From positions 1-44,254 of IMG/VR virus record IMGVR_UViG_3300032287_000776: 44,254 nt of DNA. One strand, given 5' to 3'. Source of the stretch: a virus. Under the pieces are notes generated by a model that did no database searches, was not told where the DNA came from, and saw nothing but the letters and a program-made list of their open reading frames with translations. The position numbers and the translations under genes were made by a program. Position 1 is the stretch's first letter; each line of letters begins with the position of its first letter. Positions 2,185 to 44,254 of the stretch are shown here, in pieces.

Positions 2185-3372
2185 TTACACGCAAGGTGCG
2201 GGATTCACATCATCTTGGCAACGCTTGTAGACAATCGCCACAACATTCTGTGGACGAATTGGTTGGATAGCGCGTTGGATTTGATAAATATGCTGCCCAA
2301 AGTCACCATAAAGGTTGCAATCGTTATCACGGAAGTACGTCCACTCCAGTTCACCCATCGCGAGTTGGGGAGCGAAACGGAAGGTTCCTTCACCAACGTA
2401 GCTTTCGGGGACGAGACGCTTGAACGCATTACCTGCGATAACAAACATGACTTCGTAATCGGCAGCCACCCATGCTGGGTTACGGCGTTGAGCGAAGCCA
2501 TTTGTTACGGCAGTCGAGACGATTGGGTTAACAAGGGTGAGGACACCAGCGACATTCGCGGTAGCGCGAAGGGGTTGCTGATCGATACCGAATGCAAAAC
2601 CACGATAACCCTGAAATGAGTAGCCAGAGATGGCAGTCTCACCAAGTTTGAACGAACCAGTGGTCAAGCCGATCAGATCTTCCTTAACGTCCGCATCGTT
2701 GCGGAAGTTTTCGATTTGATCAGCGGAAGCGATAACTTGGAAGAATTCACCCTCGGAGGTAGCGAATGGTTCAGCAAGCATCTCTTCACGGAGGAACGTA
2801 CCGAGTTTGTACAGAGTCTTGAAGTTCATAGGAGCGTCAGGAACCTTGTTAGCAAACAGGGTGTTGATCTGCTGCATATCGCCAGTCAAGTTAGCAGAAA
2901 AAGTAGCAGTGGAATCCACAACATATTTAATGCCAGACTGAATCAAATACTGATAACGGATGTCAGCATTAATAAGCTGGAGGATCGTCTTTTCGAGCGA
3001 AACTTGAGCTTGTAGGTAAGAACCTTTAAAAGCTGTACGGGCTTGCTTTACGCAAACACGTGGCCCAGCACCACGAAGGGTCTGAAGTTGGAACTGATAC
3101 TCAGTCGAGCCAACAACGTCAGGGGTTGCTCCAACACCGCAGAGGGTGGTGTCGTTAACGAAGGTAGGAGCAGCGAGAGAAGCGGCGGGGACTGCCATTT
3201 CCTCAACAACGCTACGGACAACGTCAGAGACGTTAGGAAGCGTTCCACCATCGATGGAGTTAATGTAAGGACTCTTACGGGCGAGAACTCGTCCGATTTG
3301 TCCGATGATACGATTTACGTCTTTGCTTGCAAAGTTTTGGATTGCAGCAAGTGAGATGCACTCTTGAGCCAT
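2185..3372 (-). CDS. Probable major capsid protein
   Basis: This 395-residue protein starts MAQECISLAAIQNFASKDVN. It is assigned mainly by position: it lies downstream of portal and scaffold, is the expected size for an HK97-fold capsid subunit, has its own promoter candidate, and is followed by a strong hairpin. The sequence is a mixed alpha/beta soluble protein with no signal peptide or membrane segment. Its C-terminal third (FRFAPQLAMGELEWTYFRDN, then cysteines near the end) is compatible with a capsid P domain, though I recognise no diagnostic motif. Two glycosyltransferase genes intervene between it and the scaffold. An alternative is another abundant head protein. Confidence 0.75.
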   Translation of the reverse strand: MAQECISLAAIQNFASKDVNRIIGQIGRVLARKSPYINSIDGGTLPNVSDVVRSVVEEMAVPAASLAAPTFVNDTTLCGVGATPDVVGSTEYQFQLQTLRGAGPRVCVKQARTAFKGSYLQAQVSLEKTILQLINADIRYQYLIQSGIKYVVDSTATFSANLTGDMQQINTLFANKVPDAPMNFKTLYKLGTFLREEMLAEPFATSEGEFFQVIASADQIENFRNDADVKEDLIGLTTGSFKLGETAISGYSFQGYRGFAFGIDQQPLRATANVAGVLTLVNPIVSTAVTNGFAQRRNPAWVAADYEVMFVIAGNAFKRLVPESYVGEGTFRFAPQLAMGELEWTYFRDNDCNLYGDFGQHIYQIQRAIQPIRPQNVVAIVYKRCQDDVNPAPCV

Positions 3373-7442: not shown

Positions 7443-9854
7443 TTATCCTGCTGTTACTGGTTTAGGTGGTGCAGCAATTTGACTTACTGCGTTAGTTTGT
7501 GAAGGGTTTGATGTTCCAACTGCCTCTCCCATTGCGGTAGCCTGTGCAGTCGATGGTCTACGTCCACCTCCTCCACCTCCACCACCTGCTGCTGCTGGAA
7601 ATAAATCACCTTCTGAAATTGGTGCTTGTCCTGCTGTGAGATGAGTAATTGCTTCAGAAACTGCCTTCTTGTACTCGGCAATCTGCTTCTTGTCTGCACC
7701 CTTCGCTTCAGCGTTCTGGACGTGACCGATAAAGTGCTGTACTGCCGATTGTAGGGGTTTAATCATCTCTGGAGGCATCGACCCTGCTGGAGCGTTAGCA
7801 ATGAGCGGGAATAGCTTCTCTATGATTGTCTGGATGTGAACAATATCGTTGTCCCGTGGAGAAACTGGAATGTCCTCACCTGAGATGATGCTCTGAAGTT
7901 CGATAATCTGCTGCCTCGTTGCCTCGATTGCCACTGCCTCAACCTGATCTTTAGGAAGGATGACTTGGTTAGCAATGGATTCACCCACTTTGCGTGACCA
8001 ATCCAACTTCATCAACTCGTCTTGGTTGATTTGTGGGTTACCCGTGTAGCGTTGAATCAGAAGATCAAGGATTGCCGCATCTTGACCCTCGGTTTGAGGT
8101 AAAAGTTCCTCTGCTGGTGAGAATGCCATTAAAAGTATGTCGCTAGGTGGCAAGTTGCGCTCCAACATGGACAAAACGCATGAAACTGCTTCTTCATCGA
8201 GGTGTCTAGGGATCTCAAATGGCACTAGGAACGATGGAATCTCGGATTGTGCCTGTTCAAACGCTTCTACAACCTCTTTTTTAGCCCACATTGCGTTAGG
8301 ATTCTGCAAACGAGCAAAATCAATCTGCGTTTTTAGCTCAGATGCGGCTTTAACGTGTTCTGGATGGCAAATTCCACGTTGCATACGTTCGACTGCCTTG
8401 GAATATTGTTTAACCCAACGCATTAAAATGCCTTCCCTAATCTGATTTTCCACGGCAGCAATGCGGTTAACCTCGGATGCGGTCTTATCGCCACCAGTGA
8501 TGTTCATAACACTGCTTGGCAGGAAAGTTCCCATCTGGATTTCAGCCAATCCAGACATGAATTGGTCGAGTTTAATGAAATCTTCCACGTCAGCGGGGAT
8601 TGCGGACTGAACAACGTCATATCCCTCTGCGACATAGGCAACGGGATGCATTACTTGAAGCGGAGGAATGCCTGTTTTAGCGGTTGGGCCTTTCTTAAGT
8701 AATAGCATCCCGCGCAGATACGAGTTATCGACAATGAGATTTCGAGCTTTGTCGATAGCAATGTGCGTGTTATACAAATCTCGTCCTGCGCCACGGGATG
8801 ACATCAACGCACCAGATCCAATCTCGATAGAGAATAAGGCGATTGTATCCGACATTCTGTTGTATCTATCCAATTGTGTACAGATTTCATCTCCTGACTT
8901 ATCGTCAAAAAGATAACGTGATATTTTTCCAGTTGGTTCCTTGATTAGCAATTCACCTAGTTCGACGTATTTTGCATCGTTTTCATAACTTGCTCCATAA
9001 GAACCCTCTCGCGTCCAGTCCTCATATCGGCGAGCATCATCATCAGAATCAAGCGTTCGTCCCGCTGGGGTTGCGTTGTTGATTGCCTTTACCAAGTTAT
9101 TGATGTGCCAACCTGCAAGTGCAGAGAGTCTTGGTTGCTCCAGCACTGGTAGCAATTCAGCAATCTGGTATCGACGCTTCCTAGCCCAAATCGGCGTTGA
9201 GTCCGCTTCCTGTGGGGTTTCGATGCTGAAGAACGTATAATCTTGGCGCAGGAACTCTGGTTTCCAGTCTCTCACGTCATCCCAGCACACCGCACAAAAG
9301 CCAAAGGTCGTATTCTCATGCGTTACTTGAGCCACTAGATCATCGTGACCCTTCCAACCCCGGATGCATTTCGTGATCTCTTCGCGAAAAATCTTTGTTT
9401 TGTTTTCTTCGCTTACTCCCTCCAACGGGAACTTGGAATATGTTAACGTAGGGGACTGCTCGATCACCTGTTTAAATGGTGGTTGTAAACGGCTAACCAT
9501 CGTAGACAAAAACCCAGTTGGGCGATTGCTGCGCCAATTCTGACCCATGCTTTCCAATTTTTTTGCACTATACGGAGGTTCATTGTTTAGCTTCTTCTGA
9601 ATCAATTGGTTCTTGCGGTTTCTCTCGACATTCTGTTGTTTCAACCTGCGATATGCAGAATGCGCTTGCTGGCAGTCTTTAAACGTCCGTTTAACTTGCA
9701 GTGTATCTGGATTTACAACGTCCCCAGTAGCGTTATCGTCAACAATCTCCAGTTCGGAAACACGTTGCTTGTCCGATGGTTTCATAATCCGCGCAGCTTT
9801 CGATGCGTAGACGTTGGTGACTTCTGCTGGAATTGGTTTGGTTGTATCTGCCAT
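7443..9854 (-). CDS. Portal protein
   Basis: This 803-residue protein lies downstream of the large terminase. It has portal-like features: a long alpha/beta body with a clip/stem-like stretch (FLPSSVMNITGGDKTASEVN then RIAAVENQIREGILMRWVKQ, about residues 456-495) and a helical C-terminus. The TASEVN motif preceding a long helix is typical of podoviral portals. The length resembles the large portals of P22- and N4-like phages rather than siphoviral ones. The C-terminus carries a polyglycine run of eight residues and a flexible Ser/Thr/Ala/Gln tail. In virions the portal forms a dodecameric ring at one capsid vertex, through which the terminase packages DNA. Confidence 0.85.
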   Translation of the reverse strand: MADTTKPIPAEVTNVYASKAARIMKPSDKQRVSELEIVDDNATGDVVNPDTLQVKRTFKDCQQAHSAYRRLKQQNVERNRKNQLIQKKLNNEPPYSAKKLESMGQNWRSNRPTGFLSTMVSRLQPPFKQVIEQSPTLTYSKFPLEGVSEENKTKIFREEITKCIRGWKGHDDLVAQVTHENTTFGFCAVCWDDVRDWKPEFLRQDYTFFSIETPQEADSTPIWARKRRYQIAELLPVLEQPRLSALAGWHINNLVKAINNATPAGRTLDSDDDARRYEDWTREGSYGASYENDAKYVELGELLIKEPTGKISRYLFDDKSGDEICTQLDRYNRMSDTIALFSIEIGSGALMSSRGAGRDLYNTHIAIDKARNLIVDNSYLRGMLLLKKGPTAKTGIPPLQVMHPVAYVAEGYDVVQSAIPADVEDFIKLDQFMSGLAEIQMGTFLPSSVMNITGGDKTASEVNRIAAVENQIREGILMRWVKQYSKAVERMQRGICHPEHVKAASELKTQIDFARLQNPNAMWAKKEVVEAFEQAQSEIPSFLVPFEIPRHLDEEAVSCVLSMLERNLPPSDILLMAFSPAEELLPQTEGQDAAILDLLIQRYTGNPQINQDELMKLDWSRKVGESIANQVILPKDQVEAVAIEATRQQIIELQSIISGEDIPVSPRDNDIVHIQTIIEKLFPLIANAPAGSMPPEMIKPLQSAVQHFIGHVQNAEAKGADKKQIAEYKKAVSEAITHLTAGQAPISEGDLFPAAAGGGGGGGGRRPSTAQATAMGEAVGTSNPSQTNAVSQIAAPPKPVTAG

Positions 9855-30755: not shown

Positions 30756-33700
30756 TTATTTATTTTTCTTTTTTGAAGCTAATACCTTTTGAGTATCTTC
30801 GTCAACACGCAAAATAAATCCAGCATTTTTTCGCATTGCTCCAGCAACAGTTTCAGCAGAACCATCGACCACTGTTTCACCAGCATGAGTTTCTCTGTAT
30901 TTCTTGAATATTTGCTCTGGTTTTACTGGGTTTTTAACCAAAAAATTGTTTCCTTTTTCTGGCCCAAGCATTACCCAATCGTATGCCTCATGCTCGACAA
31001 AATCAGGATTAGCCCTCATTTCATCTCTTGCCTTGCGTTCCGCAGCAGACATTGCCGCTTCTTCTTTTGGATCATTTCCAAAATACAAAGCAAAGATATC
31101 TGGGTTTTGAGAAAGTTCAACAGCAGTTACAATATCAAGGTTTTCACCCTCTCTAAAATCTGACGATTCACGCATAACAAGACTTGGATCAAATTTGCCA
31201 AACTTAAATGACAATATACTTCCAATTGCTGAACCCCTTTCAGAGAATGTATTCCCAATATTATCAGAAATATACAATGATTTGTTATTTTTTAATAATT
31301 CATTGTATTCTTTTAGATTAACATATTTTTCTAATTTTTTATTTGCTTTTTCAATGCTGTTTTCTTCCCAATTTCCAGTCTTAACATTACTAATTGCTGT
31401 TTTAATGCTAGAAACAGCTTTAAATATTTCACCATAAAGTCCTTTAGGAGTAATATCTTCTCTTTCTTTTGTGATTTTATTTATTTTTTCATTTATTATT
31501 CTAATCTTTTCTGGATCTTTTTTAGCGGAAGACATTTGACGTTTCAAAGCAGTTATAGCTGAACTCATTGCTGATTTCTCTCCTGCAATAATTCCTGCTT
31601 GCATGGATAATGAAATGATTTCCTTTTCCCTTTGGTTTAATTTTGATTTTCGCATCATCCTATCAAGAGTCCTTGCTGTTCTCTTGTTTGATTTATGAGC
31701 AATTGGATCCATCAAGTGAACCAAAGCGTATTTCGCTCCATGAGATGCCAATCTATTTTTAGCACCAGATACAAAGGTAGAAGTCATGTTAGCCCAGACT
31801 GCCTTGTATTTCTTACCATCTGGCCCAGTAATTGTAACTTGGTTTGATTTAAGGAATGGATGCAATGGGCCACCCATATCTCCACCAGTAGCCCTTTGAC
31901 GATCCGCTTCAAGAAGAATGACTGGTTGTCCTTTTAGTTCTTTTATTAAGTCTTTGAACTTTGGAACCTCAAGGTATTCAGGATCGTAAGAGAACGACAT
32001 TTTTCTTCCACCACCAATATCAATTTCAACATTTGTTGCTTTATCCCATTTAAATCCTTTTGCTGGAGTGATTCCTTTTATTATTGTTGTTTCAAAGTCT
32101 GGAAGCGGTTCAGTTTTTCCAATTGGACGTGCTGGCATGAACTGCAAGCCAGTTGCTCTAGGCAACTCGTCTTGCACTGGCTTATCGTTCTTATCGAGAA
32201 TCTTTATAAGATTCTCATCGAATACGACATAGTTGTATGTTCCGTCTCCTTGTTTTCGGGATGTTCCGTCGAGGTAGCGGATGCCGGGGATGCCAAAGTC
32301 AAAAAGACGCATTGAAGCTGCTTCCGTATCGCCAAATGCTCCTTCTGCAAAAGCCCCGTAAATTCGCTCGCCTTTTGTTTTATTGGTTAATTCTTCACCA
32401 TTTGGCAATCTGCCATTAAGTCCCGCAAGAGATTTTTGCACCTTCTCACTCTGTTCACTCAAAGGCTTATCCCAATCAAGCAAGTCTTCGTCTTTTACAT
32501 CGAGATCAACTTTGTATAAGTTTCCTTTTGAGAATTCTAACCAATTATTTTTTTCAGCCTCATCTATTAAAGATAATTTTTGTTTATTAAAATCCCAATA
32601 TTCACGCATTTTTGAATATGCTTCTTCAATGGTATATTTATTATTATATTTAGGATGAGGTATAACTGAAGAAACAATGTCTATAAATTCTTGTTGTTTT
32701 TCTGTTAGTTTATTAAATCCACCATATTTATTCCAAACAGGAACTTCTTTAACTGTAAGTCCTTCACTTAATTGTTCTTGATATTCTTCAGCAACCTTCC
32801 TTGCCTGTGCAAAGTAAAGACCCCATCCATACGCTTGCGCTCCTTCGCCAGTGCCGATTTTCTCCAGCTTAAACTTGTCTACGTCAAATGGAGTTCCGTG
32901 GAATGCAGGAAGGAAGTTGATCAACCCTGCGGAGGATACCAATGCGTTTGAGAATGGTTTGATAACTGCGTCTGGAGCAGGTTTTGCACTGGTGGTTATG
33001 TCAGAAGATTGTATGCTTTTTTCTGAGATATCAGGGGTCAACTCCATATCTGGCAGCATAGCCTTGCCCCGCACAGGAGGCTTAATTTCACCCAGCGAGA
33101 GTGCCTTCGCTCCAACCACCTTGGTTGGTGCGGATATGCCTTCTAGGGGACGTATACGCGCAGAGATAGGCTCGTATTTGGTGGGTTGCTCTGCTGGTGT
33201 GAATTGAACACCCTTTTGTGATTCATTCCAAATATCCAGCAACTGTGCTTTTGATTTTATAGAACTTGGATCGGTAATTACAATTTCTGCTCCGGGTTGA
33301 TAACCTACATATCCTTTTTTAGAAAGCTCACCTTGAAGAGTTTTTCTCCAAGTATTTCCAGTTTCCCCTAACCAATCGTTACTGTTCCAAGGGAAATGAT
33401 ATGGAGGTTCATTTACTCCTATAGATTGTGATGCTTTTTTAAGCATCTCGTTAAATTCAACATTATCACCACCACCATTAATTATATTAAATGGTGTTAA
33501 TTCTGTATCTCCAGCAGCATCTAATATTTTTCCATCTGTGTATAATTCAATTAAATTTCTTTTTTGAAATTGTCCGCTTTTATAACGAGGTATATCACGT
33601 TCTTCAAATGTAGATACATTACCACTAAGGGTTCCTCCTTCTCTTAAAAAAGTTGGGTTTTCAGATTTTGAAAAATGAAACAATTTGCGTTTTCTAGATT

Positions 33701-36700
33701 TAACAAAATCATCTGGATTAGTAAATTTTTTAGCTTCACTTATTAAATAATTTGTTTCTGCTGGCATGAACTGCGGTTGCCCAATCGTTATTGAATCGTA
33801 TACAATATGCTCTTTGCCTCTAGATGTTTTGATTCGACCCACTTCATTTCCAAGTTTAATTTGTCCTTTTTTGGTTGGACGTAAACGGGGTTCTCCTCCT
33901 TCAGGGTATCTTGCAAGTTTTACTCCATTTGGAAAGTCAACTTTCAATGAGTAAAAATGATCAGGGTTATTTTCAACCGATATCAAAACAGGATTTGGCT
34001 TTTCTTTTGAGCCAATAGCAGCAACCTCTGGTGGGTTCTCTGAAATCCAATCCCATCCAGCAGATTTTCTAAACAAGTTCGTTTTCCATGTTCTGCCCTG
34101 CTCATCAGGCATTTCGTCGATGAGTGAATCGCTGACAAGAGATGGTCGTTTGCCAGACGCATCGATTGTGCCTGTAGCATAGTTTTTGTTGGTAATATCT
34201 TCACCCGTTTCTAGGTCGAAGAATTTGCCCCCTTCGTTAAACTCACCAATATCAAACCTTGTCCAGAATTCTGGTGGAGCGACATAGCGTCCTCTGCGCT
34301 CCTCACCCTTCTTGCCAGTTCCTGTAAATCGTTCTGGGATAGTCTGCACTGCTGGCATGAACTGCAACTGACCACCTCTCACTTTGCCTGCCATTTCGGG
34401 AGTGATGTTTACACGCCAGATTGGGGTTGTTTCTCCTTTTCGAGCAAGTTCTTGAAGCAATTCAGCATCAGTAAAATCGTCTATTTTTTTATCAGGTTTT
34501 GGCGTTACAATTTCAGATTTCTCAACCTTGCCACCCATTTTCGCTACATACTTGCCAACCTCTTTAGGCATGATTTGGTCGTAGAATCCCTTCATGCCTT
34601 CACCACCGACTGTTAAGTCATCTCCAGTGGCAGTTCCTGAGTTTTCGGCAAGAATCTTCGATGCCACTTCTTTTCCTATCACCTCGCTTAATTGCTTGCC
34701 ATTGGCATCAGCAGTATCGGAATCATAGACAGATCCATCATCGTTGATTTTACCTGCTAATACTGTGTTTCCATTTTTAATGGCAGCAAACGCTTTTTGG
34801 TAACCCTTGGGAGTGTTCCATGTGATCTCATCGACTGCCTGACGCATTGCGTTCTCGTAACGCTTTACTTGCTCAATGCCAGTAGTCCAACCAATCCACT
34901 TCTTGTCTGCATCCACGGCATCTCGCAGTGCGCGTTTGAAAAGTTGGATAGACCAGTCTTTTCGGAATGGTGCGTCTGGGATTAAATCCTTTCCATGTAA
35001 TGTAATAGATTTAAGATATTCTAAAGCATCACTTTTTGTTTTAAACTTTACAGACGGGTCATATACTCCTTTGACTCTAAACACACCATTGTCATCAAAA
35101 ATCCTATTTTCATCGATTTTTACATCCTGAATATACCCCTTCTCCCTTCCTGCCTGATGCCTGTCAGACTGCCACTCCTCAACAAACAACCCATCGTTAC
35201 CCTGTGCGTCTGTGCGCTCGTTGAGGCGCATATGCGCTACATAGTTGGGTGTGTCTGGGAAGTGGGAGGAGGTGTATGAGGGTTTGGATTCTTCTTCAAA
35301 ATCCCACGAATTAACTCTGGGATTTTTAATGTCGGGATGATTGTCGATGTGAGATTGCGCCTCTTCCTTTGTTTTGAATAAGACTCCAAGTTGTGCGGGG
35401 CCTATCCAGCTATCATAAATGATTCCCCAATTCTTGCGTTTCGTTGGTGGAATCGGCATCGTCATCACCACTTCTCGGTAGTTTGCGCCACCGGGAAGTT
35501 GGTATTTAGCAAAGCGTGTTTCATTGCTTGTTTGGTTTGCATTACTTCCTAATTGCTGGTCTTCAAATTCTAAAACCGCTTGTTCATAAGCATCCCAATT
35601 CCTTGTCCTTTGAGCTTGCCGCTCAAGAGCGTCAATTTCACTTTGCGTCCAAGTTTTAGTTGCTCCTCCAAGTGTCACCTCTTCAAACTTAACAGCACCT
35701 TCATTGCGAAGATACTCCATAACCTTGTCTTTCGGAACCTTGCCGCTATTCTCCGTTGCAAGACGATCAATTTCACCTAGCACTCCAGACCACTTGAGTT
35801 CCTCGGCTTTTGCATTCTGTGGGTTGTTGACGATTGCCTTGAGTTGTTCTGGTGACGCAAATTTGCCCGTGACTTTCTCGTCGATGGTTTTTTGTAGACC
35901 TGAGTACATTCCACGTTCGGAGGTTGGGTAGCGTTCCGTTTCCGCTGGCATGAATTGCAAGCCAGATATTTTTTGACGTTGTGTTGCTTTTTGATTGTAA
36001 ATATCGTTTGCCGCACTTTCAATTTCAGCATCCGTCACGGATGGTGAAATGTTGAATTCACCCTCGCTATCGAACACGTTGCGAATATGCTCTGCCAGAG
36101 TTTGCTCTTGGTTGTCAACCCTCCCCGTTTTGTAGTTGTTAATTGCGTCAAAAACCACGTCCTGCGGGTTCATTTCGCTTTCCGTTATGTTTTCCTCACC
36201 CTCGGTGGCAGCAGACTCTTGATCGGATTCTAGTTTCTGAAAGATGCCTTCTAGTTCGGTTTCGTAGTTGGCAATGCGCTTGTCAGTTCCACCCTCTTCG
36301 TACATCTTTTCCAACTCGGCAGATAAGAATTTTGCCCTGTCCGTTTCTTGATTTTTTACATCAACAAAATCCCCTGACTCTTCTGGCATGAATGCAGGGT
36401 CAAACATGGAAACAATACGAATATTTCCGTTTTCCTCATCAAGCGATTCCGCTGGTTTTAAGTCATCACCTTCACGCAACTTGGATTCTAGTTGATCAAG
36501 ATTTCCTGTATTGATTGCGTTACGAATTTCTTCAGCGGTTACAGACGGAAGGTCATTTGCAAAATCCTCTGGAGTTTGGAAGTCTGCCAATGGGTTCTCC
36601 GATGGCATATAGTTGTCTCTATTCAACTCATAGTTGAATGGCATCTTCTGCAAGGCAGACTCGTTGTATTGGTTTATGCGATCAATTCTTCTTGAACGAA

Positions 36701-39700
36701 CAATAACATCAATTGGATCTTTGCCTTTTTGAACTGGCAATTTAGTCCTGCGCGGATTTGCTGCTTTTGTGTCAGCATTCCATACGTTGAATAAATCGTT
36801 TACAGCATTCTTCTTTTCAAGAGCAACAGCGGCATCTGTATCAAGACCAGTTTCACCACGATCCCCCTTAGAATGGTTATCAAGCACTTTAATAACATCA
36901 CTCCAAAATTCTGTAGTATCACCATTCCACAACTTTAGATTCTCTGGTTTTTTAGCAAGCCAAGCATTCATCTTGTCATGCATCCTGCTAACGGAAATTG
37001 TTGTGATTAGAAAGTTTCCTTGTTTAGAAAACTGGAATCCAATTGGAATTTCATCTCGGATTTGGGGAGACAATGCCCTAGATTTACCTCCGCGCATTGC
37101 GGCTTGATACTCCATGTACATCCTAGTGCCATCTTTTCTACGAAGGATTTCATTAACAAATAGAATCTGACGTTTAAGATTCGGAGAAACAATGGTGTTT
37201 GGAAGTGCAAGAACAGCGTTAACCTGCGTTTCGCTCATCACACCACGATAGTTTCCGTTTCCAGTATCTTCCAATTGCAATGCACCTTTGGACAATGCAG
37301 AATCGATAGCGTTACGAATAACCTTTCCGCGATTCCGTGACCTAGCTTCAATTTCACGATTGGATAGGATCTTTGGACTTCCATCAACATTACGAGCGAT
37401 TCGTGTTCCAACCTCAACCTGCGTTCCATCAGGCATAGTGCCAAATGTGATTTCAGGCCCAAGGTTCATTGGGATTCCCTTTTCATCCACCAATTGCCCA
37501 CCTTGAATTCGGTATGTTCCAACAAATGGATCCACTCCAGCTTCAGGCGGAAGCGGAATCTCCTGTTTACTTCCATCTGGAGCGGTCATTGTTGCAACCT
37601 GCTCCTTCTCGAAAATATCGGAATTCTTGAATTTTTCCTGCAATGAACGATCAGAAAGAATCTTCGTAAGCGGAATCTCTACTTCTTCTTTTCTAGCATC
37701 GCCCTCGTAGACCATGCTCTGGTTTAAATTATTTAATTGGCGTTGGTATTGCCGAATCATTGCAAGCGATTCTGGGGTCAATTCCGCTCCAAGAACAGTG
37801 GATATGTCACCACTATCATCAACGATGATTCCACCCTTGCGGAGCGTTTCCTTTATTGTCTTTAAAACACCATTCTGTGTCTTTACCTCAATCCAATCGA
37901 CAACTTGCCTTCCAATTGAATCTAATCCAGCCCGTTTTCCACCATTAATTCTGCCAGATCTTCCTGCGATTTCTGAAAGGACTTCTTCTTTGATATACGC
38001 TCGTAGTTTATCTTGATCACCAAATTGCGCCTTAAATGACTCTCCATTGTCAGATGGTGACATTGCAGCAGCATAAGTGTCTGCATATGCGTCTAATTTT
38101 TCATCCGAATAAACTCCCTGTGTAACCTTGTTAATAGTTCCATCATCGTTAACAATGTTTTGATCAAACAACTCCCTGCGAATAGGAGTAAGCATATCAC
38201 GCACTTCAGAAAATTGGCTCAATGCGTGTTGCATTTCATGCCCAACTACATTTCGGACATTGAATCCTTCTCCTGAAAGTTGTTTTACTAAATCGCCATT
38301 GATTACAATCGTTGCTCCTTGCAAGTTCTGCTTACGCATGAATGCTGGAGTCTCGCTTCCGTCAGAAATAGCAGCACCACGGGCAGATTGCAATGAACCA
38401 ACTTCATTGTAAAACCTATCTACAACCTTCCTTGCGTTTACTAAACTCTCACTTTCTTGTGGGCTTAAATTTGGATTTCCAGTTAATTGTGAAATAACGC
38501 CTTCAGCATCTGTTAGTGTAGTCCCATAAGAGCTACGGAAAAAGCCTTCCATTTCAGACGGGTCAAGAATCTTAACTTGGATATTATTTAATCCTGCGGC
38601 CTTACCTGTTGTCTTAGCCAAATCCATTTCTTCAGCAAATGCTAAATGCACTTGACGCAAGATTTCCTTTTGTGTTTGTGGTGTAGCTTTATCTAGCGTT
38701 TCAATGGTGGTTTTAAGTTTGCTGATTTTTGACTTAATATCCTGAACGTCTGGGCCGAATGTGACATCTTTCTTTTTCTCAAGATCGTCTATTTTAGTTT
38801 GGATAGCTTTTTTGCGTTCATCAATGCTTCCTAGCTTTTCCATTCTAGGAACCAAATCTGGATCCACGGAAGATAGAAATCGCTTAATGTCAGCATCCTC
38901 GTCTGCTCTCCTAGAACTAGGGTCTGGAGTGATGATCGTATCAATTTTCTGTGCAAGACCTGTTCTTGGGTCAATCAAAGCACCTGCTCGATCCATTATC
39001 CGCGAACCACCAAATGCTCCCATTCCAAATCCAGATCCCGCAACTTCAAATCCTTGTTCGATTGATTCAATGTCTGGAAGACCAAGAATTGTGTTTAATA
39101 CAGCACCATTGACTCCTTGTTGAGTGATGGCATTACCCTGTCTAATCATCCAGTCTGCTGCCCTTGCTCTACCAAGACCACCTCTTGACTCTGCGCTAAA
39201 TAATCTTTTTGTTAATGCGCCAGAATCTGCTGATCTTCCAGCCCGTTCAACCAACCCTCTGCGTCCAGCAGCACCTCCAACGTCAACTTGAGATGCAATG
39301 TCTTTGAAGGTTCTAGCAACTTGTTTTGTTGCGATTGTTGCTGGTTTTGCCGCTAAAACCATTCCAGTAATTTCAGGTGCTTGTATAAGTCCAGCTATTG
39401 ATCCACCTCTTATCAGGGTGTCTGGATCACCAGTAACATATTCACCAAGTTTCTTTGCTCCAGTTTGAACCCCAGCAATTCCTTTTTCAATAAACTCTGC
39501 TGATTTTTCAACTCCAGTGGCAACTGGTTTTACAACTCCTTTTAAAGCCAATTCTCCACCTTTTTGAACAGCTTTACCTGTGTATTTTCCAATTGTCTTG
39601 GTGGCAATGTTAGCACCGGGTATCGATATAGGTGACATCCATTCACCAATTGCAGAAATATATGGGTTCAGTTCTTCTCTTGTAAGTCCAGATTCTAAAA

Positions 39701-40451
39701 CCAATTCAGAATACGCTTTTTCCGCTGCTTTAGCATCTTCTTCATTTCCACCTTGCATTTTTGTGGCAATTCCTGCGGCTTTTTGTAATAGCACATTTTC
39801 TGCAAGTAATGCTGCTGCACGATCTGGAGTTCCTTCTCTCCATGCTTGCTCAATTCCACGCATATCTTCACGCAGGCGATATCTATTAAATCTTTCGTCA
39901 GCAGATAATCCTTGGAGTTTATCAGTAAATGAAGTTCCAAAATTATATGCTCTAACTCCCGCATTTGAAGTTTCTTCAATGTCACTTGCAACTCCAGATA
40001 CAAAAGAACGTCCAGCAATTTCTGCATCTCTTGCTGCAACATTTGTTTCTTTTGGAGTAGCTAATCCTAAATTGTATTTTGCTCCAACATAAACAGGCTT
40101 AACCACGGCTTCCCTTGCTAACTCATATGCTCCCCTTGAAAGTTCTCCAACCTTAACTGCTGCTGCTGGAATAAACTTTTCAAGACCAATTGCAGCTTGT
40201 TCAAGCATTGGAACCTTATCTTGTTCATCAAAGATCATTCTTTGTTGAACTTCAGAAAGTGGTTTGCCTTCTGCCTTTAGTTTTTCAAGTTTAGCAACAT
40301 CAAACTCCTTTTGAGTGCTTTCTTCCTCTTGCTTCTTAAACTCATCATCTGCAATATCAAGAATTGATCCTTTATCTTGTTTTGTTTCAGGTTTATTTAT
40401 TTGTGCAAACTCCTCATCTGCAACATCAAGAAGACTCGGTTCGTTTTCCAT
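30756..40451 (-). CDS. Giant polyvalent protein with metallopeptidase and ADP-ribosyltransferase modules
   Basis: 3231 residues. The N-terminus has two copies of an acidic motif (LLDVADEEF and ILDIADDEF). A zinc peptidase motif HEMQH lies near residue 738. Around 1499-2030 is a large-polyvalent-protein module with EEWQSDRHQAGREKGY and WIGWTTGIEQ. Near 2511-2750 is the ART-PolyVal domain: FHGTPFDVDKF, then IGTGEGAQAYGWGLYFAQA, with a C-terminal NYVVFDENLIKIL. Near 2844-2920 is another known-type module, LLEADRQRATGGDMGGPLHP and HLMDPIAHKSN. Five FMPA/FTPA boxes plus two weaker variants lie between modules. Adjacent virion genes suggest it is packaged and injected, as proposed for such proteins; the ART could modify host proteins. 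Confidence 0.85.
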   Translation of the reverse strand: MENEPSLLDVADEEFAQINKPETKQDKGSILDIADDEFKKQEEESTQKEFDVAKLEKLKAEGKPLSEVQQRMIFDEQDKVPMLEQAAIGLEKFIPAAAVKVGELSRGAYELAREAVVKPVYVGAKYNLGLATPKETNVAARDAEIAGRSFVSGVASDIEETSNAGVRAYNFGTSFTDKLQGLSADERFNRYRLREDMRGIEQAWREGTPDRAAALLAENVLLQKAAGIATKMQGGNEEDAKAAEKAYSELVLESGLTREELNPYISAIGEWMSPISIPGANIATKTIGKYTGKAVQKGGELALKGVVKPVATGVEKSAEFIEKGIAGVQTGAKKLGEYVTGDPDTLIRGGSIAGLIQAPEITGMVLAAKPATIATKQVARTFKDIASQVDVGGAAGRRGLVERAGRSADSGALTKRLFSAESRGGLGRARAADWMIRQGNAITQQGVNGAVLNTILGLPDIESIEQGFEVAGSGFGMGAFGGSRIMDRAGALIDPRTGLAQKIDTIITPDPSSRRADEDADIKRFLSSVDPDLVPRMEKLGSIDERKKAIQTKIDDLEKKKDVTFGPDVQDIKSKISKLKTTIETLDKATPQTQKEILRQVHLAFAEEMDLAKTTGKAAGLNNIQVKILDPSEMEGFFRSSYGTTLTDAEGVISQLTGNPNLSPQESESLVNARKVVDRFYNEVGSLQSARGAAISDGSETPAFMRKQNLQGATIVINGDLVKQLSGEGFNVRNVVGHEMQHALSQFSEVRDMLTPIRRELFDQNIVNDDGTINKVTQGVYSDEKLDAYADTYAAAMSPSDNGESFKAQFGDQDKLRAYIKEEVLSEIAGRSGRINGGKRAGLDSIGRQVVDWIEVKTQNGVLKTIKETLRKGGIIVDDSGDISTVLGAELTPESLAMIRQYQRQLNNLNQSMVYEGDARKEEVEIPLTKILSDRSLQEKFKNSDIFEKEQVATMTAPDGSKQEIPLPPEAGVDPFVGTYRIQGGQLVDEKGIPMNLGPEITFGTMPDGTQVEVGTRIARNVDGSPKILSNREIEARSRNRGKVIRNAIDSALSKGALQLEDTGNGNYRGVMSETQVNAVLALPNTIVSPNLKRQILFVNEILRRKDGTRMYMEYQAAMRGGKSRALSPQIRDEIPIGFQFSKQGNFLITTISVSRMHDKMNAWLAKKPENLKLWNGDTTEFWSDVIKVLDNHSKGDRGETGLDTDAAVALEKKNAVNDLFNVWNADTKAANPRRTKLPVQKGKDPIDVIVRSRRIDRINQYNESALQKMPFNYELNRDNYMPSENPLADFQTPEDFANDLPSVTAEEIRNAINTGNLDQLESKLREGDDLKPAESLDEENGNIRIVSMFDPAFMPEESGDFVDVKNQETDRAKFLSAELEKMYEEGGTDKRIANYETELEGIFQKLESDQESAATEGEENITESEMNPQDVVFDAINNYKTGRVDNQEQTLAEHIRNVFDSEGEFNISPSVTDAEIESAANDIYNQKATQRQKISGLQFMPAETERYPTSERGMYSGLQKTIDEKVTGKFASPEQLKAIVNNPQNAKAEELKWSGVLGEIDRLATENSGKVPKDKVMEYLRNEGAVKFEEVTLGGATKTWTQSEIDALERQAQRTRNWDAYEQAVLEFEDQQLGSNANQTSNETRFAKYQLPGGANYREVVMTMPIPPTKRKNWGIIYDSWIGPAQLGVLFKTKEEAQSHIDNHPDIKNPRVNSWDFEEESKPSYTSSHFPDTPNYVAHMRLNERTDAQGNDGLFVEEWQSDRHQAGREKGYIQDVKIDENRIFDDNGVFRVKGVYDPSVKFKTKSDALEYLKSITLHGKDLIPDAPFRKDWSIQLFKRALRDAVDADKKWIGWTTGIEQVKRYENAMRQAVDEITWNTPKGYQKAFAAIKNGNTVLAGKINDDGSVYDSDTADANGKQLSEVIGKEVASKILAENSGTATGDDLTVGGEGMKGFYDQIMPKEVGKYVAKMGGKVEKSEIVTPKPDKKIDDFTDAELLQELARKGETTPIWRVNITPEMAGKVRGGQLQFMPAVQTIPERFTGTGKKGEERRGRYVAPPEFWTRFDIGEFNEGGKFFDLETGEDITNKNYATGTIDASGKRPSLVSDSLIDEMPDEQGRTWKTNLFRKSAGWDWISENPPEVAAIGSKEKPNPVLISVENNPDHFYSLKVDFPNGVKLARYPEGGEPRLRPTKKGQIKLGNEVGRIKTSRGKEHIVYDSITIGQPQFMPAETNYLISEAKKFTNPDDFVKSRKRKLFHFSKSENPTFLREGGTLSGNVSTFEERDIPRYKSGQFQKRNLIELYTDGKILDAAGDTELTPFNIINGGGDNVEFNEMLKKASQSIGVNEPPYHFPWNSNDWLGETGNTWRKTLQGELSKKGYVGYQPGAEIVITDPSSIKSKAQLLDIWNESQKGVQFTPAEQPTKYEPISARIRPLEGISAPTKVVGAKALSLGEIKPPVRGKAMLPDMELTPDISEKSIQSSDITTSAKPAPDAVIKPFSNALVSSAGLINFLPAFHGTPFDVDKFKLEKIGTGEGAQAYGWGLYFAQARKVAEEYQEQLSEGLTVKEVPVWNKYGGFNKLTEKQQEFIDIVSSVIPHPKYNNKYTIEEAYSKMREYWDFNKQKLSLIDEAEKNNWLEFSKGNLYKVDLDVKDEDLLDWDKPLSEQSEKVQKSLAGLNGRLPNGEELTNKTKGERIYGAFAEGAFGDTEAASMRLFDFGIPGIRYLDGTSRKQGDGTYNYVVFDENLIKILDKNDKPVQDELPRATGLQFMPARPIGKTEPLPDFETTIIKGITPAKGFKWDKATNVEIDIGGGRKMSFSYDPEYLEVPKFKDLIKELKGQPVILLEADRQRATGGDMGGPLHPFLKSNQVTITGPDGKKYKAVWANMTSTFVSGAKNRLASHGAKYALVHLMDPIAHKSNKRTARTLDRMMRKSKLNQREKEIISLSMQAGIIAGEKSAMSSAITALKRQMSSAKKDPEKIRIINEKINKITKEREDITPKGLYGEIFKAVSSIKTAISNVKTGNWEENSIEKANKKLEKYVNLKEYNELLKNNKSLYISDNIGNTFSERGSAIGSILSFKFGKFDPSLVMRESSDFREGENLDIVTAVELSQNPDIFALYFGNDPKEEAAMSAAERKARDEMRANPDFVEHEAYDWVMLGPEKGNNFLVKNPVKPEQIFKKYRETHAGETVVDGSAETVAGAMRKNAGFILRVDEDTQKVLASKKKNK

Positions 40452-40453
40452 TT

Positions 40454-42181
40454 TTATTTAGCTTGTTGCAATTGAGTTTTTAAAGATTTGTATTGTTTGA
40501 TCAATTCTTGTGCAGCGGGATCATTTGCTTGTGACTTAGGAATCGATTTCATCATTTCAGAAAGAACACTGATATCATTTGTTAATTGCGTTTTATCTAA
40601 AGGAATATCAAATGGCTTAATAATATAATCTGGATCTAATCCAGAGTCAGATGCAAGTTTTCTAATCCTTGGAATTGATTCTTTGTTTGCATTTTCTAAA
40701 GCAATTCTTACTAATCCAGTTGTTAATTGACGCATATTTTCTCGATCTGCTGGAGGAAGTTTAGCTCCCTTTGAAAACTTTTCTGTAATAAATTTAGGAT
40801 CGTATTTATTAAGAAATGCAATTGCAGATTGCATAAGCGCAACATCACCTTCTCGAACGGCAACGCCGGGGTCAATTAATCTTTGGAATGCATTAATTGC
40901 AGCAATATCTGAAAACCCATTCTCTTTTGATAATGAGGTGAATATTGTATTTTTTGAATCTCTAAATATTAATGCTTTTGAATATGTTGGGTTTTTTTCT
41001 AAATCACCTTGCATTGTTAAAACTAACTTAGCTTGATCTGCACTTAGCTTTGGAGTAGAACCCGGAGCAACATACTTTTCATTTATTTCTGGCTGCTCAA
41101 CATAATAGAATGACCTGCCTAACTCCTTGTCAGTTTCGCGTGTTATTTTTGGAGGATTATAGTTAGGCAATAACTTTTGGATTCTAGTAGCAGCGGCCCT
41201 AGCGTCTGCTGCGCTTTCGTATGGAAGTTCTGTTAAGTTTCCAACCTCTTCGTCAACCCTTTCTTGGTTTTGTAATGCCTCATCCGCTCCAGTTGCTTCT
41301 TGAATCATTTTAACTCTATTTTCTTCAAGTTTTGCCAGCATAGCAGGATTTGATTTAAATGAAGATGGTTGAGTTGTAACAGCGGTTGCAGGGAGAACTG
41401 CTGGAGTTGGAGTTGGAGTTACTTGCGGAATAGGTGCTGGAGGAACCATAATGCCTCCAGTTGAGGCTTGAATATTGGTAAGTGGGGGATTTGTAACTGC
41501 TAAAATTTGCTCTTGTGAGATAACTGGTTCAAATGGGGAAGTTGCAATCGCAGATGGTTGTTGAAATGAAATGTCAGCTAAAACACCACCTCTTTTGAAC
41601 CCACTCAAATCTCGCTTTGGAAACTCTTCATCAACGGATGATACGGGAGGAAGTAGAGGTGTTGGATCATCAACTGATGTTGGGCCTGTTGGTAATTCCT
41701 CTTCAACTGGTGGAATAACTATTGGAGTTTCACTAGCTGGAATTGCTTTGCGAACTTCTTTTTCTTCAAATGCTCCTCTTGGCCTTGATCTAACAGGAAC
41801 CTTATCTCCACCACGTTCTTTTGTTCTTAATAACAAATCATTGTATCTTGCTTGTTCATACGCAAGTTCCATTGGAGTCTTTTCTGCTTTGATTTTAGCA
41901 ATATTTATATCACGTAGGTATTTAAGTGCTTCCTTATCTGCTTCTTTAGCCTCATCATCCTTCGCTTTAAATGCACCAATAATAGGTTCAGCTAACGCTT
42001 GGAACCCCTTTGCAGCACCCATGCTGACTAACTCCTGCTGCGCGGATGGAACCTCGTATTTCGGCATGGGAGTAAACTGAATGCTTACCCCAACGTCGAG
42101 AGGTTTTAGCGCAGAAAGAGGACTCGCCCCAAGACTTGCGGTCTGTGGAGTGTACGAATAGCCACCAGTGGGTAGTGCCAT
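40454..42181 (-). CDS. Probable internal or structural virion protein, Pro-rich middle
   Basis: 575 residues. The first 120 residues include a helical EAKEADKEALKYLRDINIAK region. The middle (about 140-290) is low-complexity and Pro/Thr-rich, with PTPTPAVLPATAVTTQPSS. The C-terminal third is helical (RLIDPGVAVREGDVALMQSA and TNDISVLSEMMKSIPKSQAN). No enzyme motif. It lies two bases upstream of the giant gene and next to the shared-tail virion proteins, which fits an ejected or internal protein. The assignment is by position and composition. Confidence 0.6.
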   Translation of the reverse strand: MALPTGGYSYTPQTASLGASPLSALKPLDVGVSIQFTPMPKYEVPSAQQELVSMGAAKGFQALAEPIIGAFKAKDDEAKEADKEALKYLRDINIAKIKAEKTPMELAYEQARYNDLLLRTKERGGDKVPVRSRPRGAFEEKEVRKAIPASETPIVIPPVEEELPTGPTSVDDPTPLLPPVSSVDEEFPKRDLSGFKRGGVLADISFQQPSAIATSPFEPVISQEQILAVTNPPLTNIQASTGGIMVPPAPIPQVTPTPTPAVLPATAVTTQPSSFKSNPAMLAKLEENRVKMIQEATGADEALQNQERVDEEVGNLTELPYESAADARAAATRIQKLLPNYNPPKITRETDKELGRSFYYVEQPEINEKYVAPGSTPKLSADQAKLVLTMQGDLEKNPTYSKALIFRDSKNTIFTSLSKENGFSDIAAINAFQRLIDPGVAVREGDVALMQSAIAFLNKYDPKFITEKFSKGAKLPPADRENMRQLTTGLVRIALENANKESIPRIRKLASDSGLDPDYIIKPFDIPLDKTQLTNDISVLSEMMKSIPKSQANDPAAQELIKQYKSLKTQLQQAK

Positions 42182-42185
42182 AAGG

Positions 42186-42698
42186 TTATACCCCGCCGAA
42201 TGTTAGTCCAGATGCTGAAGGAACTGCGAATTGATTGACCCGCTGGCTACCACCACCCGCGCCAAGATTCGCCGCAGTTGTCATAGCTGGGTTCACAATC
42301 GTTGGGTTCAGCATATTTGCGCCCGTGGATGGAAGGGTTCCAGATGCCGCTCCAAGATTTGCCAACGCGCCTTGACGTGCGGCATTGACATCGTATCCAG
42401 TTCCCGTTGCTGCCGCTCCTGCACCTTGTGCCGCAAGCAAGCTACGTTGACGTGCAGCGGCATCTTCTGCTGCTTTTAAGGCATTCATACCACTAATAGA
42501 CTGCTGGGCGCGTTGTGACCCTTCACGGGCAAGCATGGAGGCTTGCTGATTTTGCGCTTCGATCATCGAATTACGTTGCGACAAATCAGTGTCTCGCCTA
42601 GCGCGAGCCGATTCCTCTCGATTTTGACGCATTTGCTCAAGCAACACTAGCGTGTTGTCTGGTGGTGGTGGTGGTGTTGGCATTGATCCTCCTCCCAT
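42186..42698 (-). CDS. Virion-associated protein with shared C-terminal tail
   Basis: 170 residues starting MGGGSMPTPPPPPDN, then a long charged helix (LEQMRQNREESARARRDTDL) and an Ala/Gly-rich region. The C-terminus is AANLGAGGGSQRVNQFAVPS then ASGLTFGGV, almost the tail of the two paralogous genes at the right edge. AAGGAG precedes the ATG with good spacing. It is probably a small internal or head-neck protein; the function of the shared tail is unknown. Confidence 0.7.
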   Translation of the reverse strand: MGGGSMPTPPPPPDNTLVLLEQMRQNREESARARRDTDLSQRNSMIEAQNQQASMLAREGSQRAQQSISGMNALKAAEDAAARQRSLLAAQGAGAAATGTGYDVNAARQGALANLGAASGTLPSTGANMLNPTIVNPAMTTAANLGAGGGSQRVNQFAVPSASGLTFGGV

Positions 42699-42745
42699 AA
42701 TATTACTCCTTAATTTTAATGTTAATTGTTTGGTTGGTTGTTAGT

Positions 42746-42774
42746 GAAATACATTTAATATTTCAAATTGTCAA
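42746..42774 (-). promoter_or_regulatory. Weak promoter candidate before the 170-aa virion gene
   Basis: TTGACA (42774-42769), 17-nt spacer and TATTTC (42751-42746). The -35 is perfect and overlaps the stop region of the cysteine-cluster gene; the -10 is weak. It is one of three TTGACA boxes placed at the end of a gene before a long gap. Confidence 0.3.
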
Positions 42775-43047
42775 TTTCTTTCTCGCTTCTTTGCAAAGAT
42801 CGGAACCGGGTTGAAATTGTCTGCAAGAATTCGGTCTATCTGCATATACCATGCAACACACTTTTTCTCCAACTTTTCCATCCAAGGCAATGCATCTAGA
42901 ATCGGTTGTTTTCATCAACGGATAGTCTTGCCTTTGCATTTCTTGCGGGATACCAGTCGCATCAGATCGATCTCGTCGCAAGACAGGCCAAGACCACTTA
43001 AAGCAACAACAAGCACCGCACTTTTCGCAGTCGTATTCATCATCCAT
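42763..43047 (-). CDS. YkgJ-type cysteine-cluster protein
   Basis: 94 residues with MDDEYDCEKCGACCCFKWSW at the N-terminus, then a second cluster (DSRCIALDGKVGEKVCCMVY, ADRPNSCRQFQPGSDLC). The CxxCGxCC...C pattern is the YkgJ/UPF0153 family, proposed to bind a zinc or iron centre. The stop is separated from the 170-aa gene by 64 bases, and its start overlaps the upstream gene as TAATG. An unusual occupant of a virion operon; perhaps a metal-dependent assembly factor. Confidence 0.8.
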   Translation of the reverse strand: MDDEYDCEKCGACCCFKWSWPVLRRDRSDATGIPQEMQRQDYPLMKTTDSRCIALDGKVGEKVCCMVYADRPNSCRQFQPGSDLCKEARKKLTI

Positions 43048-43577
43048 TAAAGCGGTTTGCGAACTTGAGCATAGGGATTGAATTCACCTCCGGGTGAGGT
43101 TGCTGGATTACCAAATTTCTGCCCATAAGCACCAATTGCAGCAGTTCCAACGGACTTAAATGCATCAGCCCATCCTTGTGATACTTTTTCCTCACCAGTC
43201 TCTGGTACGGAATATGCACCCATAGATGAAAAACCAAGACTGCCACTTCCGTCACCACTACCGCGCTGCATGGCAGACCAAGCTGAAGCGGAATCAGATT
43301 GTGATTTAGCCGCACGATCATATGGAGAAGATGCCGCTTGACCAACCTTACCAAATGCGTCTTTCAATGCATCGCCAATTTGGTTCTGTTGTTGCTTTTG
43401 CGGGTTGTAATCAGGTCTAGGTTGCGCTCCAGTTCCTAACTTTCCAGAAAATAGATTTTGCATGGTGTCACCAGTTCTGCCAATGGCATTTGATGCACTT
43501 CCAAGAAGTCCATCGAATTGACTATTTGGCACTGGTGTTCCTGCCCCTGTTGCGTTTGCTGGTTGTGATCCACCCAT
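43047..43577 (-). CDS. Low-complexity virion-type protein, MGGS start
   Basis: 176 residues, Gly/Ser/Gln/Ala-rich, starting MGGSQPANATGAGTPVPNSQ with a central QKQQQNQIGDALKDAFGKVG helix. It shares the MGGS start and the strong GGAGG leader with its upstream neighbour, but not the C-terminal tail (it ends EFNPYAQVRKPL). Probably a small structural or ejected virion protein. It overlaps the cysteine-cluster gene by TAATG. Confidence 0.6.
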   Translation of the reverse strand: MGGSQPANATGAGTPVPNSQFDGLLGSASNAIGRTGDTMQNLFSGKLGTGAQPRPDYNPQKQQQNQIGDALKDAFGKVGQAASSPYDRAAKSQSDSASAWSAMQRGSGDGSGSLGFSSMGAYSVPETGEEKVSQGWADAFKSVGTAAIGAYGQKFGNPATSPGGEFNPYAQVRKPL

Positions 43578-43678
43578 AATATTATGTTCCTCCGAATTTT
43601 AATCCGCTTGCACTTGGCATAGCAAATTGATTTGATTGTTGACCTGATCCACCCGCTCCTAAATTTGCAAGAATTTTT
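43567..43678 (-). repeat. Direct DNA repeat spanning gene junctions, copy 1
   Basis: About 112 bp here and about 113 bp at 44090-44202 share the end of one gene, its stop, the GGAGG leader and the ATG-GGT-GGA-TC start of the next. Offset is 523 bp at the ATG and 499 bp beyond an eight-codon indel. It records a recent tandem duplication. Confidence 0.6.
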
Positions 43679-44100
43679 GGTATAGGTTGAGGTGATGCAG
43701 AACTAACGCTTGTTGGAGTTGACATAACTCCAGATGGTATATTATTTAATTGTCCTTGCGTGTTAGGTGCAGGTGTTGAAATTTGATTAGGAAGTTGAGT
43801 CTGTGGTTTTGCTAATATTGGTGGTAAATATAGCCCAGATCCAGCTTGAGCTTGATTTTGCTGCACAGGTTGAGGAACTTTAATTTGATTTACTGGCTTA
43901 TACAACATAGATCCACCAGTCAATTTGCCCGTTGATCCAGCCTGTTTTGCTTGCTCAAATTGTTGTTTTTGTTCTGGGGTCAATTTTGATACCAATCTAT
44001 TAGCATATGTATCAACTCCATCATTTGAAGATGTTAATACACGGAAAGTTTCACGGATCGGTTGTTCATTTGTTTTTTGACTGTAATTTGATCCACCCAT
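43582..44100 (-). CDS. MGGS-start virion-type protein with shared C-terminal tail
   Basis: 172 residues: MGGSNYSQKTNEQPIRETFR start, a helical LTPEQKQQFEQAKQAG segment, a Pro/Gln/Ala/Ser-rich middle, then PKILANLGAGGSGQQSNQFA and MPSASGLKFGGT. The ATG has a GGAGG Shine-Dalgarno about ten bases upstream, inside a DNA repeat. It is a near-copy of the partial gene at the right edge. A small, possibly multi-copy virion protein. Confidence 0.65.
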   Translation of the reverse strand: MGGSNYSQKTNEQPIRETFRVLTSSNDGVDTYANRLVSKLTPEQKQQFEQAKQAGSTGKLTGGSMLYKPVNQIKVPQPVQQNQAQAGSGLYLPPILAKPQTQLPNQISTPAPNTQGQLNNIPSGVMSTPTSVSSASPQPIPKILANLGAGGSGQQSNQFAMPSASGLKFGGT

Positions 44101-44202
44101 AATATTATGTTCCTCCGAATTTTATTCCATTTAATTTTGGCATGGAAAATTGGTTTGTTTTTTGACCTGAGCCACCCGCTCCTAAATTTGCAAGAATTTT
44201 TT
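44090..44202 (-). repeat. Direct DNA repeat spanning gene junctions, copy 2
   Basis: The same repeat as at 43567-43678, at the right window edge. It covers the start of the 172-aa gene and the C-terminal part of the partial upstream paralogue, including CAAGAATTTTT-like coding of the ILANLGAGG peptide. Confidence 0.6.
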
Positions 44203-44254
44203 GTACGCTTGTTGGAGTTGATGTAACTCCAGATGGTATATTATTTAATTGTCC
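44105..44254 (-). CDS. Partial paralogue of the 172-aa virion-type protein
   Basis: The C-terminal 49 residues and stop are visible; the start is beyond the right edge. It ends VQKILANLGAGGSGQKTNQF then SMPKLNGIKFGGT, closely matching the neighbour's tail; an eight-residue stretch present in the neighbour is missing. Both carry PSGVxSTPTS before the tail, so the genes are duplicates. Confidence 0.7.
   Translation of the reverse strand, partial: GQLNNIPSGVTSTPTSVQKILANLGAGGSGQKTNQFSMPKLNGIKFGGT

Follow-up and report, generated by a model that had tools for sequence, protein, structure and literature searches.

Why should neighboring phage proteins end in the same peptide when their bodies differ? 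This question is raised by one end of a 44,254-nucleotide viral contig (IMG/VR record IMGVR_UViG_3300032287_000776; hereafter the window), in which three minus-strand open reading frames, labeled here by their lower coordinates 42186, 43582, and 44105, share the ending NLGAGG-x2-Q-x2-NQF-x2-P-x3-G-[LI]-x-FGG-x-stop (Table 1). The shared tail (NLGAGGGSQRVNQFAVPSASGLTFGGV in 42186, NLGAGGSGQQSNQFAMPSASGLKFGGT in 43582, and NLGAGGSGQKTNQFSMPKLNGIKFGGT in 44105) comprises ∼16 residues with the consensus N-x-F-x2-P-x3-G-[LI]-x-FGG. We propose, with a probability of roughly 0.6, that it is a C-terminal docking (packaging) peptide for proteins of the virion or of an ejection module, which would be read by one shared receptor in the virion.

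Table 1. Tail genes, their C-terminal tails, and neighboring genes in the window
Feature	Position	Strand	Basis
3231-aa giant polyvalent protein	30756..40451	minus	weak ART-PolyVal match, E 3e-5, below curated cut-off
575-aa protein encoded just downstream of the last tail gene; candidate for an ejection/virion protein	40454..42181	minus	cluster comparison
Tail gene, 170-aa protein, family A	42186..42698	minus	ORF call, 38-member family alignment, AF2 model
C-terminal tail of the 42186 protein, NQFAVPSASGLTFGGV-stop	42186..42236	minus	GGCGGGG close to the start of the next gene
CxxCxxCC metal-binding protein, conserved cluster member	42763..43047	minus	PF03692, E 1.6e-7
176-aa MGG-starting protein, tail-less, same operon, C terminus variable in relatives	43047..43577	minus	ORF call, relatives
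Tail gene, 172-aa protein, body MGGSNYSQKT... unrelated to family A, tail shared	43582..44100	minus	ORF call, tail-trimmed comparison
C-terminal tail of the 43582 protein, NQFAMPSASGLKFGGT-stop	43582..43632	minus	GGAGGA = Shine-Dalgarno-like site, next start 43577
Third tail-bearing protein, last 49 residues	44105..44254	minus	ORF call; recent tandem copy of the 43582 C terminus
C-terminal tail of the 44105 protein, NQFSMPKLNGIKFGGT-stop	44105..44155	minus	motif match

Chance was rejected as the source of the three tails, because a degenerate DNA pattern for the tail has three matches in the window and none in 100 dinucleotide shuffles; an annotation artefact was rejected as well. The original prediction held that the three proteins share this tail, that the body of the 42186 protein is unrelated to the others, and that the peptide is conserved while the DNA of the 42186 tail differs, and the comparison of the three genes bears this out. 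Over the last 28 codons, the 42186 tail DNA is identical to the other two at only 52/84 and 49/84 bases, whereas 43582 and 44105 share 71/84 bases and thus represent a recent tandem copy. The 16-mers of 42186 and 43582 have 13 residues in common, most of them specified by different codons, and two conserved serines are encoded by AGY codons in 43582 and by TCN codons in 42186. When the tails are trimmed, profile–profile comparison of these two bodies returns a probability of 0.1%; with tails, the two proteins align at 95.8% over the C-terminal 33 columns. Only the end of the 44105 protein is visible because its gene is cut by the contig end, and an uncut homologue lies at L010:6015-6419.

The tail recurs well beyond the window. 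A strict pattern matched 68 stretches of viral contigs, each match lying one or two residues before a stop codon, and a looser in-frame pattern that included the stop codon matched at least 119. A decoy built from the same letters but shifted out of frame by one base yielded one viral match, and another out-of-frame pattern yielded none. A profile of the tail detected it in 26/26 of the related records, with one to three occurrences per record; four of these records (G015–G018) had been picked solely via their terminase (TerL, ∼80% identity) and not via the motif. Applied to 786 predicted proteins, this profile matched 42 times at the C terminus and never credibly inside a protein. Every sequence used derives from public metagenomes and belongs to a single broad phage group, and genes were called mechanically. 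The phages of this group have terminase, portal-like, scaffold-like, and capsid-like genes in common across a wide range, the last three names being assigned from gene size and order; in the window, the portal-like and capsid-like genes lie at 7443-9854 and 2185-3372. We found no cultured relative of the group, for which INPHARED gave one marginal terminase match only, and no solved structure. One terminase of the group (L170:13005-15890) carries a ∼341-aa in-frame insert in its Walker A motif (GAGAMGK|T) that matches Hint and LAGLIDADG homing endonuclease domains, that is, an intein, which has no counterpart in the terminase of the window and is probably also present in L112, L114, L117, and L124.

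All 48 complete clusters recovered from relatives contain one to three tail genes (one in 20, two in 21, and three in 7 clusters at the profile cut-off used), and these nearly always abut a gene for a protein of 430 aa or more (typically ∼550 aa). The clusters begin with a ∼710-aa protein of the phage tail, small genes, and a PAPS-reductase-like gene (SGGKDS), continue often with a tail-less MGG-starting protein and then the CxxCxxCC protein and the one to three tail genes, and end with a 450–740-aa protein and a polyvalent protein of 2,200–3,500 aa. Additional tail genes lie upstream of the MGG protein in the window and in L010, so their place in the cluster is not fixed. In clusters with several slots, each slot keeps its own version of the tail across genomes: tail identity is 0.60 within the same slot, compared with 0.50 across slots between genomes and 0.49 across slots within a genome. 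This difference speaks against a general origin of the tails by recent copying, which we rejected. The tail is therefore neither absent from relatives nor confined to recent tandem copies, the outcome that would have spoken against the original prediction; the search of relatives for the same C terminus recovered it in 48/48 complete clusters, in slot-specific, long-conserved versions. The peptide-level part of the tag that had been proposed, a C-terminal tag common to unrelated proteins, is strongly supported.

Several neighbors of the tail genes have features of their own. The CxxCxxCC protein and the PAPS-reductase-like gene (for example, L164:13680-14645) occur regularly in the virion gene cluster. 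The giant polyvalent protein, with its weak ADP-ribosyltransferase-type match, varies greatly in length and content among relatives and is probably packaged and injected; phage polyvalent proteins are typically encoded near virion genes and are thought to be packaged and injected (PMC5512222). The upstream ∼710-aa protein bears only a weak resemblance to tail-hub β-propellers. Its AF2 model is poor (mean pLDDT 50), and its propeller matches, among them P22 and Pa223 tail chains at Z 8.8, are not above those to unrelated propellers. The C termini of the tail-less MGG protein and its homologues vary among close relatives (YAQVRKPL, FGGANKMG, WVPRATRA, NTFGGRLV, and others) and show a high terminal replacement rate of 0.229; the end that reads SPGGEFNPYAQVRK is similar to the N-terminal region of the protein at L156:16259-16690 (TPGGAFNPQAQVQK). 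A second shared end is the MGG(G/S) start, which occurs in 17/20 tail genes versus 27/581 other genes, counting open reading frames with MGG inside the first 30 residues. In the window, such starts lie at 42698, 43577, and 44100, and several tail-less cluster neighbors have them likewise.

How far the shared tail reflects common descent depends on the bodies that precede it. Family A, which includes the 42186 protein, combines an MGG start, a long helix, GG-x-[YF]-D and NLGAA-x-LP-x-T segments, a linker, and the tail; in the 42186 protein, the MGG start is followed by a proline-rich part, the long helix, a GYD..NLG..LPST segment, and a disordered linker leading to the tail. Family A bodies with a tail are present in 47/48 clusters, with two of them in 16 clusters. 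Many tail proteins are thus ordinary homologues, and part of the sharing is common descent. This favors plain paralogy, in which the tail genes would be diverged tandem copies of one ancestor and the slowly evolving C terminus a structural part of each protein and not portable, as does the recent duplication that produced 43582 and 44105. Other bodies that carry the tail are a GEIVIP-type protein, a protein with a cationic/hydrophobic N terminus (L004), and others, a diversity that plain paralogy does not predict. Profile–profile comparison of ten tail-trimmed body groups left 43/45 pairs at ≤4% probability, the exceptions being A–B (93.5%), again in favor of paralogy, and D–G. With tails kept, the same groups align at 11–99%, mostly over the C-terminal stretch. 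Without their tails, the bodies form about eight families with no detectable relation to each other, contrary to descent from one ancestor. The A–B fusions, which also favor paralogy, look like module shuffling upstream of a constant tail; the proteins at L212:7745-8488 and L225:4974-5603 look like another N terminus fused to a family A body. An alignment of 33 proteins mostly from outside family A has a mean column identity of 16% and only the F, P, F, G, and G of the tail as invariant columns, an invariance that is partly built in because the sequences were collected by motif; the C-terminal position, the gene neighborhood, and the terminase-selected genomes are evidence independent of this sampling.

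The predicted structure of the 42186 protein also argues against a tail that is part of each fold. In the AF2 model, residues 16–97 form a long helix, and residues 122–159 and 168–170 have a pLDDT below 50. The tail lies in this low-confidence C-terminal third, probably within a disordered stretch rather than a folded core, as is typical of short linear motifs carried on flexible arms. We therefore consider plain paralogy unlikely as the whole explanation. Searches of PHROG, Pfam, and the PDB returned nothing beyond weak single hits for any tail protein, profile searches with the tail and with the body found no match in the PDB, and no sequence similarity to known ejection proteins was found in PHROGs, Pfam, and the PDB beyond weak single hits. 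Ejection protein families diverge fast. We found no report of a phage-wide C-terminal tag in the open-access literature.

A second alternative locates the constraint in the nucleic acid, the end codons being kept as the Shine-Dalgarno or translation-coupling region of the next gene or as a recombination boundary for cassette exchange. Indeed, among the matches listed, the terminal Gly-Gly codons provide a GGAG/GAGG/AGGA site for the next start in 66/119 cases, usually with a stop-to-ATG gap of 1–4 bases, and both gene ends (MGG start and FGG end) are conserved, as such a reading would expect. In the window, GGAGGA both ends the protein and forms a Shine-Dalgarno-like site for the next gene at 43582-43632 and at 44105-44155. 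However, Gly-Gly followed by one residue ends 17/18 tail genes and only 2/282 other genes with a close downstream neighbor, so that Shine-Dalgarno use is a second role of these codons and not their cause. The 124 distinct tail DNAs use all four proline codons and mixed phenylalanine and glycine codons, the more upstream N, F, and P are retained as residues despite mixed codons, and the serine codon boxes switch between AGY and TCN, none of which a DNA-level constraint would explain.

Substitution rates among close relatives separate the two levels. In the last 16 codons of the tail, pN is 0.030 versus 0.138 in the preceding 16, and most tail-less genes of the operon have a higher terminal pN of up to 0.25; the drop at the tail assigns the low replacement rate to the peptide. 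Synonymous divergence is also reduced in these codons (pS of 0.245) and near starts, in line with the DNA-level reading, but several tail-less operon genes show the same (0.18–0.28). We therefore dropped a tail-specific effect on pS and assign the low synonymous rate to the initiation region of the next gene. The 2/282 versus 17/18 comparison and the pN profile reject a pure Shine-Dalgarno constraint and make the nucleic-acid reading as a whole improbable. Judged by these patterns, the selected unit is the peptide. The conservation of the C-terminal DNA is due in part to the ribosome-binding site of the next gene, an aspect absent from the original prediction.

As read from the genomes, the tail is conserved, strictly C-terminal, carried by unrelated bodies, confined to the virion cluster, and selected as a peptide. 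Gene position and analogy make docking, sorting, or virion incorporation its most plausible role, and we infer the presence of the tail proteins in the virion, the binding of the tail to a receptor, and the identity of that receptor. The position of the genes and the tail on a flexible arm suggest a plug by which several small proteins are attached to a single virion site. In the proposed mechanism, the tail would terminate a flexible, disordered linker on small proteins that are mostly helical and encoded in the virion gene cluster, and one common receptor would read it while the virion is growing. The likeliest places for this receptor are the portal/tail channel and the adjacent 550–650-aa ejection-type protein. 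By means of the same plug, each phage could bring one to four different proteins to equivalent sites, and further bodies could be added or swapped by attaching it. To our knowledge, the tail contains no known degron or sorting motif, which counts against a role after injection, in which it would address effectors within the host (to a membrane, a protease, or a defence target) or mark them for degradation. Such a role would suit the very diverse bodies and the adjoining giant polyvalent protein, a type that is believed to be injected (PMC5512222), but nothing points to a host receptor and the constancy of the tail across phages that have diverged elsewhere fits a phage partner better, leaving it very improbable.

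How phages choose the proteins that they carry is understood in very few systems (T4 and P1). If the docking reading is true, a 16-residue C-terminal peptide would be a simple rule to spot carried proteins in uncultivated phages, would link many open reading frames without known function to the virion, and could be used as a loading tag. More tentatively, and at somewhat less than even odds, the tail might represent a general C-terminal plug-in loading system, with one peptide, one receptor, and exchangeable unrelated small proteins across an uncultivated phage family, unrelated to known packaging signals. The Gly-Gly codons of the tail offer a clean example of dual coding, as they close one protein and contribute to the initiation of the following one.

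Among known systems, the ejection proteins of podoviruses (P22 gp7/gp16/gp20 and those of T7) and the cargo of crAss001 are protein sets stored in the virion, to which the tail proteins would be a counterpart. In crAss001, the cargo protein gp45 is bound at the portal and the tail barrel (PMC10172136). As for podovirus ejection proteins, gene order places the tail genes in the virion gene block, beside the phage tail and other late genes. In contrast, the parts of the sources at hand describe no shared C-terminal peptide for the P22, T7, or crAss001 proteins. A terminal peptide as packaging signal is known from DarB of phage P1, where 30 terminal residues suffice to bring a reporter into phage heads (PMC9024508). 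The sequence-based candidate role of the tail is similar, although the signal is N-terminal on DarB, and here it is C-terminal, which sets it outside the DarB type, and found on several small proteins and not on the giant polyvalent protein.

The capsid targeting sequence (CTS) of T4 is N-terminal and removed on maturation by a prohead protease, whereas all matches to the tail of these putatively encapsidated proteins are C-terminal. The internal proteins of T4 are diverse and share only the CTS, which directs them into the head (PMC3012670); an N-terminal packaging signal is also spoken of in PMC9024508. Like the CTS, the tail is a short peptide on otherwise diverse co-encoded proteins with exchangeable bodies, as the tail-trimmed bodies are unrelated. 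The targeting peptide of encapsulin cargo is likewise short and C-terminal, occurs on unrelated co-encoded cargo, and docks to one site of an HK97-fold shell (PMC8346489). The tail shares the C-terminal position on unrelated co-encoded proteins, which would be cargo here as well. It differs in that the GSL-type consensus SDGSLGIGSLKRS is absent and there is no GSL core, and in its context, a phage genome with terminase and portal-like genes. By analogy, the tail is thus best read as functionally similar to the T4 capsid targeting sequence or to encapsulin cargo peptides, while being a member of neither.
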